NCBI GenBank assembly: GCA_009377585.1
Contig: WHTS01000019.1
Coordinates: 15,112 to 74,988 of the forward strand
DNA: 59,877 bases
Reading direction: 5' to 3'
From: Betaproteobacteria bacterium
Lineage (GTDB): Bacteria; Pseudomonadota; Gammaproteobacteria; Burkholderiales; WYBJ01
Each line of letters starts with the position of its first letter. Position 1 is the first letter of the stretch. The translations under genes and the position numbers were made by a program. Below are positions 18,280 through 21,235 of this stretch, in pieces. The notes beneath the pieces were generated by a model. That model did no database searches. It was not told the origin of the DNA and worked only from the letters and a program-made list of their open reading frames with translations.

Positions 18280-19800
18280 ATGTGCGGAATCGTCGGGGTC
18301 GTCGCCAAAGGGGCCGTGAACCAGCTGCTCTACGATGCGCTGCTGGTGCTGCAGCACCGCGGCCAGGACGCGGCCGGCATCGTGACTTGCGAAGGGGCCT
18401 CGTTCCACATGCACAAGGGCTCGGGCTTCGTACGCGACGTCTTTCGTACCCGCGACATGCGCTCGCTGCTTGGGAACATGGGCATCGCGCATGCGCGCTA
18501 TCCGACGGCGGGCTCGGCCTGGGCCGCCGCCGAAGCCCAGCCTTTGTACGTCAATTCGCCGTTCGGCATCGTGCTGGCGCACAACGGCAACCTCACCAAC
18601 ACCGAACAGCTGAAGAACGAGCTGTTCCGCGACGACCTGCGCCACGTCAATACCAACTCGGACTCCGAGGTGCTGCTGAACGTGTTCGCGCACGAGCTGC
18701 AGATGGCGGTGTCGGGCCGGGCCATCGATCCGGCAACCGTGTTCCAGGCGGTGGCGGGCGTGCATCGCCGCTGCCGCGGCGCATACGCCGTGGTGGCGAT
18801 GATCGCGGGCTTCGGCCTGATCGCTTTTCGCGATCCGTATGGAATCCGGCCGATCGTGTTCGGGCGCGCGGAAACCGAGCGCGGCATGGAATACCTGGTC
18901 GCTTCGGAAAGCGTGGCGCTCGATACGCTCGGCTTCGAGCTCGTTCGCGACGTCGATCCGGGCGAGGCGATCCTGATCGATGCCGATGGCAACTTCTACA
19001 GCCAGCAGTGCGCGTCGCAGCACTCGCTCAACCCGTGCATCTTCGAGTACGTATATCTCGCCCGGCCGGATTCGCAGATCGACGGTATCTCGGTGTACCA
19101 GACGCGGCTCAACATGGGCGAGAGCCTGGCGCAGAAGATCAAGCGCGCCTACCGCCGGTTGGACATCGACGTCGTCATTCCGATCCCGGACTCGAGCCGC
19201 CCGGCCGCCATGCAGCTCGCCAAAGGGCTGGGGCTGCCGTATCGCGAGGGCTTCATCAAGAATCGCTACATCGGCCGTACCTTCATCATGCCGGGGAAGG
19301 CGGTGCGCAAGAAGTCCGTGCGCCAGAAGTTGAACGCCATCGCGCAGGAATTCAAGGGCAAGAACGTGCTGCTGGTGGACGATTCGATCGTGCGCGGGAC
19401 GACCAGCCGCGAGATCGTGCAGATGGCGCGCGAATCGGGCGCCCGGCGCGTGTTCTTCGCCTCGGCTGCGCCGCCGGTGCGCTATCCCAACGTCTATGGC
19501 ATCGACATGCCCACGCGCGAGGAGCTGATTGCCACCGGGCGCTCGAACGAGCAGATCGCGCGCGAGATCTGCGCCGACGAGCTCATTTATCAGGACCTGG
19601 AGGCCCTGGTCGAGGATGTGCGGCAGGTCAACCCGCGCGTGCCGGATTTCGAAGCCTCCTGTTTTTCGGGCCGCTATGTGACCGGCGACGTTACCCCGGC
19701 CTACCTCGCGGGCGTGGAGGCGCAGCGCCGGCATTCCGCGCCGCGCACTGAAGACAGCGGCAGCGGCCAGCTGGATCTCAACCTGGTGCTGACGGAGTAG
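18280..19800 (+). CDS. purF: Amidophosphoribosyltransferase
   Basis: First committed step of purine synthesis: PRPP plus glutamine to phosphoribosylamine. The 506-residue protein has the N-terminal nucleophile C2 (MCGIVGVV, no propeptide), the glutaminase domain and the PRPP loop VLLVDDSIVRGTTSREIV in the type I phosphoribosyltransferase domain. Length and cvpA neighbour are typical. Confidence 0.97.
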   Translation: MCGIVGVVAKGAVNQLLYDALLVLQHRGQDAAGIVTCEGASFHMHKGSGFVRDVFRTRDMRSLLGNMGIAHARYPTAGSAWAAAEAQPLYVNSPFGIVLAHNGNLTNTEQLKNELFRDDLRHVNTNSDSEVLLNVFAHELQMAVSGRAIDPATVFQAVAGVHRRCRGAYAVVAMIAGFGLIAFRDPYGIRPIVFGRAETERGMEYLVASESVALDTLGFELVRDVDPGEAILIDADGNFYSQQCASQHSLNPCIFEYVYLARPDSQIDGISVYQTRLNMGESLAQKIKRAYRRLDIDVVIPIPDSSRPAAMQLAKGLGLPYREGFIKNRYIGRTFIMPGKAVRKKSVRQKLNAIAQEFKGKNVLLVDDSIVRGTTSREIVQMARESGARRVFFASAAPPVRYPNVYGIDMPTREELIATGRSNEQIAREICADELIYQDLEALVEDVRQVNPRVPDFEASCFSGRYVTGDVTPAYLAGVEAQRRHSAPRTEDSGSGQLDLNLVLTE

Positions 19801-19863
19801 CGGGGGTGCATCGCAGCGAAATCGGATCGCGGCAGCAAAGCAGCAGCCGTGTCAACGCGGCGG

Positions 19864-19892
19864 TTGACAGCCCGGTCCGGCTTACGTAGGCT
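19864..19892 (+). promoter_or_regulatory. Candidate sigma-70 promoter for the metZ riboswitch transcript
   Basis: A perfect TTGACA (19864-19869) is 17 bp from TAGGCT (19887-19892). The predicted RNA start (about 19899) coincides with the 5' end of the SAM-II aptamer, which supports the assignment although the -10 is weak. Confidence 0.6.
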
Positions 19893-19898
19893 CTCAGT

Positions 19899-19957
19899 TC
19901 GCGCCGATTTGATGCTTCAGCTTGCGGGCGCGTAATAAATTCCGCTAAAGCGAGGGT
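19899..19957 (+). ncRNA. SAM-II riboswitch aptamer upstream of metZ
   Basis: The segment matches the SAM-II (metA motif) pattern closely. P1 is CGCGCC (19900-19905) with GGCGCG (19927-19932). The conserved GATTT (19906-19910), TAATAAAT (19933-19940), GCTAAAG (19944-19950) and AGGG (19953-19956) follow in order. SAM-II elements bind S-adenosylmethionine through a pseudoknot; GCTT (19914-19917) with AAGC (19948-19951) is one possible second strand. It precedes the methionine gene metZ, the expected context. Recognition is by eye from the consensus. Confidence 0.87.
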
Positions 19958-19974
19958 CGTAAGCCCGCTTTGGC
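19944..19974 (+). promoter_or_regulatory. Predicted antiterminator hairpin of the metZ leader
   Basis: GCTAAAGCG (19944-19952) can pair with CGCTTTGGC (19966-19974) over 9 bp with one G-U. This hairpin uses the 3' conserved strand of the aptamer and the 5' strand of the terminator, so it excludes both. This is the geometry expected for SAM-induced termination. Confidence 0.6.
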
Positions 19975-19997
19975 ATTGTGCCCAAGCGGGCTTTTGC
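19961..19997 (+). terminator. Rho-independent terminator between purF and metZ
   Basis: AAGCCCGCTT (19961-19970) and AAGCGGGCTT (19984-19993) form a perfect 10-bp stem with a 13-nt loop, followed by a short T-rich tail. It begins 4 nt after the SAM-II aptamer and precedes the metZ start by about 70 nt, so it is most likely the expression platform. It could also end purF transcripts. Confidence 0.8.
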
Positions 19998-20062
19998 ATT
20001 TCTGGCGGAGGACGAGACGAGTGCCGGGCCGGCCGCGGCCTGCCGGCATTCACGTGACGGTC

Positions 20063-21235
20063 ATGAGCGAAGACTACCAGTTCGAAACGCTGGCCGTGCG
20101 CGCCGGCATCCATCGCAGCCAGTTCGCCGAGCACAGCGAAGCGATGTACCTCACGTCGAGCTTCGTATACGAGAGCGCGGCACAGGCTGCAGCGCGCTTC
20201 GCAGAGAAGGAAGCGGGCTACATCTATTCGCGCTTCACCAATCCCACCGTCACCACCCTGCAGGAGCGGCTTGCGGCGCTCGAAGGCGCGGAAGCCTGCA
20301 TCGCGACGGCCTCAGGCATGTCGGCCATCCTCGCCTGCGCCATGAGCCTGCTGCAAAGCGGGGATCACGTCATCGCATCGCACAGCATTTTCGGTTCCAC
20401 GGTGCAGCTGTTCGGGGGCATCCTCAAGCGCTTCGGTATTGCCACCACGTTCGTGTCCCCGACCGATGTCGGGGCGTGGGAGAAAGCGCTCACTGCGCAG
20501 ACCAAGCTGCTGTTCGTGGAAACGCCATCCAATCCGCTGACCGAGATCGCCGATGTTGCGGCGCTGGCTCGGCTCGCCCATCGCGCCGGCGCGGCGCTTG
20601 CGGTCGACAACTGCTTTTGTACGCCCGCGCTGCAGCGTCCAATCGCGCTCGGAGCGGATATCGTGATCCACTCGGCGACCAAGTACCTCGACGGTCAGGG
20701 CCGCATCGTCGGCGGGGCCGTGCTCGGGCGGCGCGACTTCATCATGGGCTCGGTCTATCCCTTCATGCGCACGGCCGGCCCGACCCTGAGCGCCTTCAAC
20801 GCCTGGGTGATCCTCAAGGGGCTGGAGACGCTGCGCGTGCGTATGGAAGCGCATGCCGCAAATGCGGCCGAGCTGGCGCGCTGGTTGGAGAACCAGAGCG
20901 CGATCGAGCGGGTCTACTATCCGGGGCTGCCGTCGCATCCGCAGCACGAGCTGGCCATGCGCCAGCAGCGCAGCGGCGGCGGCATCGTGTCGTTCGATGT
21001 CCGGGGCGGCCGCGAAGGGGCCTGGCGCGTCGTGGACGCGACCCGCATGCTGTCGATCACGGCCAACCTGGGCGACACGAAGAGCACCATCACGCATCCG
21101 GCTTCGACCACCCATGGACGCATCAGCGCGGAAGCCCGGGCTGCAGCCGGTATCGGCGAAGGCCTCCTGCGCGTCGCCGTCGGGCTCGAAGCGATCGAGG
21201 ACATCAAGGCCGATCTCGCGCGCGGGCTGCGCTGA
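20063..21235 (+). CDS. metZ: O-succinylhomoserine sulfhydrylase
   Basis: PLP enzyme making homocysteine from O-succinylhomoserine and sulfide, the direct sulfhydrylation route to methionine. The 390-residue protein begins SEDYQFETLAVRAG and has IYSRFTNPT, ATASGMSAI and the PLP lysine K207 in HSATKYLDGQGR. A GTG at 20021 with GGAGG 9 nt upstream would add 14 residues and is a serious alternative start. It is controlled by the upstream SAM-II riboswitch. cvpA-purF-metZ order is conserved. Confidence 0.94.
   Translation: MSEDYQFETLAVRAGIHRSQFAEHSEAMYLTSSFVYESAAQAAARFAEKEAGYIYSRFTNPTVTTLQERLAALEGAEACIATASGMSAILACAMSLLQSGDHVIASHSIFGSTVQLFGGILKRFGIATTFVSPTDVGAWEKALTAQTKLLFVETPSNPLTEIADVAALARLAHRAGAALAVDNCFCTPALQRPIALGADIVIHSATKYLDGQGRIVGGAVLGRRDFIMGSVYPFMRTAGPTLSAFNAWVILKGLETLRVRMEAHAANAAELARWLENQSAIERVYYPGLPSHPQHELAMRQQRSGGGIVSFDVRGGREGAWRVVDATRMLSITANLGDTKSTITHPASTTHGRISAEARAAAGIGEGLLRVAVGLEAIEDIKADLARGLR

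Follow-up and report, generated by a model that had tools for sequence, protein, structure and literature searches.

A SAM-II riboswitch that very likely controls metZ by SAM-induced transcription termination, and its probable place in a beta-proteobacterial methionine regulon

The closest described systems are the SAM-II riboswitches of the Rfam family SAM_alpha (RF00521). Many of them carry putative terminators, and near-consensus promoters were noted a few nucleotides before P1 (Corbino 2005). The majority are transcriptional according to Huang and Lilley (2018). In S. meliloti, the SAM-II leader of metZ is predicted to terminate transcription on SAM binding and the RNA levels agree; in the metA leader, no SAM-driven action is predicted for the terminator below the aptamer, and stabilisation of the RNA when SAM is high was put forward for both leaders (Scheuer 2022). 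Tandem SAM-II are also known, with 44 examples (Sherlock 2022). According to Leyn 2014, SAM_alpha occurs only in Rhizobiales and Rhodobacterales. The same report describes a new RNA element of beta-proteobacteria, metXZ, which lies before metXW or metZ and consists of two region pairs that form a pseudoknot, followed by a terminator; it precedes metZ in Methylophilales and Nitrosospira and metX in most others. Finally, RF02424 (Bp2_287) is an Rfam sRNA family whose source paper reports it near purF, metZ and metX and proposes that it is a cis element of methionine genes.

Here we analysed a stretch of 59,877 nt (hereafter, the window) from a Betaproteobacteria bacterium (contig WHTS01000019.1), in which the leader of metZ had been predicted to combine promoter boxes, a SAM-II aptamer, an antiterminator and a terminator. 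All these pieces were found where the original prediction had placed them (Table 1). The leader shares with SAM_alpha, as published in 2005, the P1 and P2 pseudoknot, the GAUUU/UUGC/GCUAAA core, a promoter a few nucleotides before P1, a terminator and a methionine gene. It differs in P2, which is C/G-rich in the Rfam consensus, whereas P2b of the window would be CUUC/GAGG with a bulged A. It resembles the S. meliloti metZ leader in having a SAM-II aptamer, a terminator, the same gene and a predicted SAM-induced termination that yields a short RNA, the difference being that S. meliloti is an alpha-proteobacterium. The tandem SAM-II and SAM-II/SAM-V riboswitches of Sherlock 2022 also have a SAM-II with a terminator as first unit, but the window has a single aptamer. 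The idea that termination is unusual for SAM-II is contradicted by these reports (Corbino 2005; Huang and Lilley 2018). Since promoters at P1 and terminators were published in 2005, the majority of the class is transcriptional and S. meliloti metZ is a precedent, the design is not new in kind. We consider it very likely that this SAM-II riboswitch controls metZ by SAM-induced transcription termination, i.e. as an OFF-switch. It is a textbook switch, and its value lies in joining separate records.

Table 1. Positions of the metZ leader elements and neighbouring genes in the window.
Feature	Position	Strand	Evidence
purF, amidophosphoribosyltransferase, upstream neighbour	18280..19800	+	TIGR01134, 522.5 bits
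-35 box TTGACA	19864..19869	+	sequence; TTGAC 32-40 nt before P1 in 96/143 loci
-10 box TAGGCT, weak (3/6 bases of TATAAT), 17-nt spacer	19887..19892	+	sequence
SAM-II aptamer	19900..19957	+	R1, 75.0 bits; RF00521 match 19891-19965, 35.1 bits
P1 5' strand CGCGCC	19900..19905	+	R1 match, folding
Loop L1: GAUUUG, variable part with P2b 5' strand, UUGC core	19906..19926	+	RF00521 and R1 matches
Possible outer antiterminator helix, 5' strand; partner 19977-19992 in longest folds	19919..19932	+	folds; enrichment
P1 3' strand GGCGCG	19927..19932	+	R1 match, folding
Pseudoknot P2 3' strand GCUAAAGCGAG; bases 1-9 are the antiterminator 5' strand	19944..19954	+	P2 covariation in relatives; antiterminator enrichment
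Terminator 5' arm	19961..19970	+	sequence, folding
Antiterminator 3' strand CGCUUUGGC	19966..19974	+	sequence, enrichment, folding
Terminator 3' arm	19984..19993	+	sequence, folding
Imperfect U-tract UUUUGCAU	19992..19999	+	sequence
Shine-Dalgarno-like GGAGG, fits GTG 20021 in frame with ATG 20063	20007..20011	+	sequence; inference
metZ, O-succinylhomoserine sulfhydrylase (ATG 20063; GTG 20021 possible)	20063..21235	+	NF006003, 713 bits; TIGR01325, 586.7 bits; both over cut-off

Judged by its sequence, the element is a SAM-II aptamer, the only one in the window. RF00521 matched it at 35.1 bits when searched on 19780-20080 (301 nt, E 1.5e-6) and with E 8.1e-6 on the whole genome. The Infernal search proposed as a check thus recovered the predicted class, but 0.9 bits short of the gathering cut-off of 36, and an Rfam scan of the whole window at gathering cut-offs gave zero matches. 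Our own model R1 gave 75.0 bits (E 8.5e-18), and its next-best match in the window only 15.4 bits. R1 has 48 rows, 36 of them present in loci obtained by searching public genome contigs with a pattern and 12 from other loci only; no row comes from the seven loci of the window's genus. The pattern search had kept the inner P1 and GCTAAAGCG constant in 36 rows, which leaves the outer P1 pair and the outer P2b pairs as the main source of covariation information. Read in this way, P1 and P2 covary in the 48 aligned relatives: 89.2% of the cells are paired, the score is 0.163 against 0.076 in shuffled alignments (0/500 as high), and both sides have changed in 47 cells against 21.9. Pairing falls to 28.6-46.6% when the partners are slid by 1 to 3 columns. 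Column tests agree on the outer P2b pairs (pair -5 × 3 at z 5.8). The duplex energy of the whole P2b segment did not stand out from that with permuted partners (-2.84 own, -2.73 permuted; 36/200 reached the own value).

A linker, read from the sequence, separates the P1 3' strand from GCUAAAGCGAG. The core bases GAUUU, UUGC and GCUAAA are all present in the aptamer; we take the UUU of L1, UUGC and GCUAAA to be the SAM contacts in the SAM-II crystal structure. Hence, covariation of P1 and P2, core bases and methionine-gene context all place the element in SAM-II, with the RF00521 score below gathering level. The SAM-V model RF01826 had no match on 19780-20080 at E up to 10. A spermidine variant class was considered as a SAM-II relative and rejected, as it belongs to SAM-I. 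The sub-threshold RF00521 score could also point to a leader peptide or another attenuator with a coincidental aptamer match, and the Trp_leader model does reach 18.7 bits, the terminator being its best-matching part. This explanation is barely credible, given that a SAM-II-type model built from other loci reaches 75.0 bits, that the pseudoknot covaries in relatives and that methionine genes lie downstream.

The RNA is predicted to start at or next to 19900, in line with the initial proposal of a start at the first base of the aptamer. A consensus promoter scan of the region listed none. Upstream DNA was long enough for a comparison in 143 non-redundant loci, the window's own among them. In 96 of these, TTGAC lies 32-40 nt ahead of P1 base 1, against a mean of 1.1 and a maximum of 5 in mononucleotide shuffles. 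The distance peaks at 36 nt (37 sequences), and the TTGACA of the window also lies 36 nt before aptamer base 1. A -10-like NANNNT at a spacer of 16-18 nt is found in 76 of the 96, a raw count.

The switch itself is predicted to work during transcription, which would begin at P1 base 1. When SAM is scarce, 19944-19952 (GCUAAAGCG) would pair with 19966-19974 once the latter is made, hiding half of the terminator 5' arm, and the polymerase would continue into metZ. At high SAM, the ligand would close the P2 pseudoknot and sequester 19944-19954. The terminator would then fold and transcription would end, with a predicted RNA 3' end at about 19994-19999. The antiterminator has nine pairs, one of them G-U, and its 3' strand has five bases in common with the terminator 5' arm, so that the two structures are mutually exclusive. 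Exclusion had been claimed for all the parts. It holds for antiterminator and terminator. Within the aptamer, it is the pseudoknot strand that the 9-bp antiterminator competes with, whereas P1 and the antiterminator coexist: the minimum of the leader folded to 19980 has both (-29.5 kcal/mol). Besides its outer arms, the terminator holds an inner GGC/GCC stem. The U-tract reads UUUU GC AUUU, with only four U ahead of the GC. A consensus terminator scan of the region listed none, probably because its allowed loop is short.

If the antiterminator is functional, it should recur in related leaders. We collected 156 loci, five of which lacked the core by regular expression; 155 cores were found, 154 were parsed and 144 remained after redundancy had been removed on the basis of shared 6-mers. 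Of these 144, 107 have a terminator-like hairpin and a T-rich tail downstream of the aptamer. The non-redundant set still contains related species, so that shuffles leave shared ancestry in place. A helix of at least nine pairs covering GCUAA was present in 26 of the 107 terminator-bearing loci, the window included (dinucleotide shuffles: mean 1.2, maximum 5). With at least six pairs the count was 41 (10.7, maximum 18), which leaves 66 loci without such a helix. In a run with a null of 10.9, 32 of the 41 helices overlapped the terminator 5' arm, 4 involved the loop only and 5 reached the 3' arm. The excess depends on the gene. It is found for metZ-like genes (23/41; null 4.8, maximum 12) and for other genes (14/41; null 4.2, maximum 9), but metX shows no clear excess (4/25; null mean 1.6, maximum 5). 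Hence, the antiterminator design is clear for metZ and is not shown for metX by this route. All four metZ leaders collected from the window's genus have an antiterminator of 9-10 pairs.

A second, outer helix running through L1 was tested for its GCUUG/CAAGC part, which in the window pairs 19920-19924 with 19983-19987. At least seven Watson-Crick pairs were found in 11/107 loci (null 1.2, maximum 4), a weaker enrichment than that of the inner helix. Both helices occur together in 12 loci and are nested in 11. Two other counts were discarded: an antiterminator made with the P1 3' strand, rarer than expected (10/107 observed, 17.9 expected), and a count without the GCUAA requirement (at least nine pairs in 42/144, null 6.1%), which poly-T matches had inflated.

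Folding of the leader is consistent with a switch that acts on the nascent RNA, with energies that exclude the pseudoknot and SAM. In stepwise folding, P1 is present at 19940 to 19960, absent at 19964 and back at 19968-19972. It is joined by the antiterminator at 19976-19984, gives way to a longer antiterminator at 19988 and stands with the terminator at 19992-19996, before the long antiterminator fold returns at 20000-20004. The longer alternative folds break P1 by pairing 19919/19920-19932 with 19977-19987/19992. For the leader to 19993, the terminator state is at -39.8 kcal/mol versus -36.6 for the antiterminator state; to 20004, the long antiterminator fold is slightly better (-41.0 vs -40.4). 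To mimic the bound state, 19944-19954 was kept unpaired; the probability of the terminator pair 19965-19989 is then 1.000. Without ligand, the equilibrium of the leader to 19998 also favours the terminator pair (0.997, and 0.003 for the antiterminator pair). Since the leader is terminated at equilibrium without SAM, switching must be kinetic and occur during transcription.

The same equilibrium would be expected if the SAM-II aptamer preceded a constitutive terminator, such that a short RNA is made, metZ is limited and the main effect of SAM is on the stability or translation of the RNA. The terminator of S. meliloti metA, which is not predicted to be SAM-driven, offers a precedent (Scheuer 2022). 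We find this unlikely, because an antiterminator of 9 bp that makes use of the aptamer core greatly exceeds chance in the loci compared and is kept in the genus, and because the Shine-Dalgarno-like GGAGG of metZ sits 3' of the terminator, beyond the aptamer. SAM-induced termination before metZ, as put forward originally, is thus supported by comparison and folding, the response to SAM itself being a prediction. As for the start of metZ, GTG 20021 appears better placed behind GGAGG than ATG 20063.

The genome encodes a second SAM-II copy, before metX (RF00521, 31.9 bits). The frame after metX is presumably metW-like, as judged by eye. MetX is assigned to the succinyl type by NF047916 (667 bits), which suits a partner O-succinylhomoserine sulfhydrylase. 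Hence, the window copy (metZ) and the second copy (metX) both precede genes of homocysteine synthesis. Across 60 genomes, our own included, RF00521 matches 26 at E 1e-3 but only 7 over its cut-off, and R1, some of whose rows were taken from these genomes, matches 43. The RF00521 cut-off thus looks strict for this clade.

SAM-II elements were also seen before other genes. A cluster of 14 loci has one before a gene that looks metH-like by eye, a 60-residue fragment of which matches PF02574 at 16.2 bits, below cut-off. Others precede genes for homoserine O-succinyltransferase, SAM synthetase or amino-acid kinases. Four cores lie in MAG contigs titled Acidimicrobiia or Planctomycetota. Ten loci (L156, L157, L165-L167, L169, L174, L176, L178 and L179) carry SAM-II variants in which an additional hairpin, by eye about 12-38 nt long, separates the P1 3' strand from the AAAU of loop L3; the 'SAM-II long loops' model RF01726 had no match in L157-L176 at E up to 0.1.

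These observations bear on the metXZ element. SAM-II lies before metX in contigs of Herminiimonas, Herbaspirillum, Thauera, Zeimonas and Rhodocyclus, and before metZ in those of Nitrosospira, Novimethylophilus and Methylophilales HTCC2181, in agreement with the distribution given for metXZ; no Burkholderia- or Ralstonia-named leader is among the named contigs. Only 3 of 10 named contigs (these eight and two more) pass the RF00521 cut-off, which would explain why Leyn 2014 missed SAM_alpha in beta-proteobacteria. Their element has the same position upstream of metXW or metZ, a two-pair pseudoknot, a following terminator and overlapping species groups. It differs in having been published as new and with no ligand in the description. 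On this published description and on the gene and species pattern, metXZ is very probably SAM-II. The predicted ligand of an RNA element published without one would then be SAM. In the literature on metXZ and riboswitches, the word metXZ occurred only in Leyn 2014 among the matches listed.

The second record is RF02424, which matches the minus strand of the window at 19865-19996 (22.9 bits, E 0.0026). The locus might accordingly encode an antisense sRNA of this family, but the score is far below the membership score of 70. Moreover, matches elsewhere are mostly antisense to SAM-II: 6/6 in relatives and, in the family of Herbaspirillum sp. ST 5-3, at least 34 of 45 among the matches listed (4 show no SAM-II, at three loci, and 7 lie beyond the R1 matches listed). 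The source paper used reverse transcription with oligo(dT), which is not strand-specific, and its own suggestion was a cis element of methionine genes. An antisense sRNA is therefore highly improbable. RF02424 and SAM-II share the identical DNA stretch near purF, metZ or metX and differ in the strand that was modelled. As RF02424 reads mostly the strand antisense to SAM-II, this Rfam family was probably modelled on the wrong strand; for its part, the RF00521 cut-off loses many members in this clade.

We consider it likely that these records belong to a beta-proteobacterial SAM-II methionine regulon that the catalogues have split or missed. The metXZ element and RF02424 would be the SAM-II transcription switch of metX and metZ, and a sister variant, widespread in one large family, would control metK translation by an anti-Shine-Dalgarno helix. 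This variant is a second, SAM-II-related motif, GAGUUAA...CAACUUGC...GCUAAAGCGUCG, with UUAA and CAACUUGC. We checked 37 loci where it stands alone, i.e. the 30 best of the family of Herbaspirillum sp. ST 5-3 and 7 from relatives. Of these, 35 have metK within 700 nt (34/36 distinct, as L193 and L222 are the same DNA), the exceptions being another gene (L207) and a contig edge (L218). In most of the metK-motif loci the match lies near position 1500. Model R2 matches 142/145 genomes of that family, a count that takes in ordinary SAM-II as well as the metK type, since R2 matches both.

The pseudoknot of the second motif covaries in 18 rows, mostly tandem copies (score 0.269 vs 0.089, 0/500), with two of five measures no better than shuffling (350/500 and 474/500). 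In 31 loci (30 of the 37, after removal of five near-copies and the two lacking metK, plus L102), the segment that follows the aptamer pairs with the Shine-Dalgarno region of metK: the mean longest helix is 7.16 with the own partner and 6.31 with permuted ones (0/500). This anti-Shine-Dalgarno helix covaries, e.g. AGGCUC/GAGCCU. Seven metK loci were scanned with Rfam, and the highest-scoring match to the second motif was RF00521 in one locus (20.9 bits, E 0.78). According to Leyn 2014, metK had no known regulator in beta-proteobacteria and their own search for one failed; the metK leader variant would fill this gap stated in print. A narrow literature search on metK, riboswitches and Burkholderia-related bacteria gave no description of the variant among the matches listed.

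The second motif also occurs in tandem, after a SAM-II and its terminator. Of 17 such cores, 16 have a first-type core 97-184 nt upstream by script, and the 17th (L153) has one seen by eye; as the loci were chosen for the first motif, this count is no frequency. Tandem SAM-II as such is not new, being already in Sherlock 2022, and we dropped it as a novelty. In seven tandem units the second motif precedes other genes, named by eye; they include metZ (L024) and genes for short proteins starting with MFDC or MYDC and for an HD-domain-like protein. Two of the metK loci also have an SAH riboswitch (RF01057) on the minus strand within 1.5 kb of the metK leader, at 122-229 in L194 (52.1 bits) and at 94-177 in L199 (55.4 bits).
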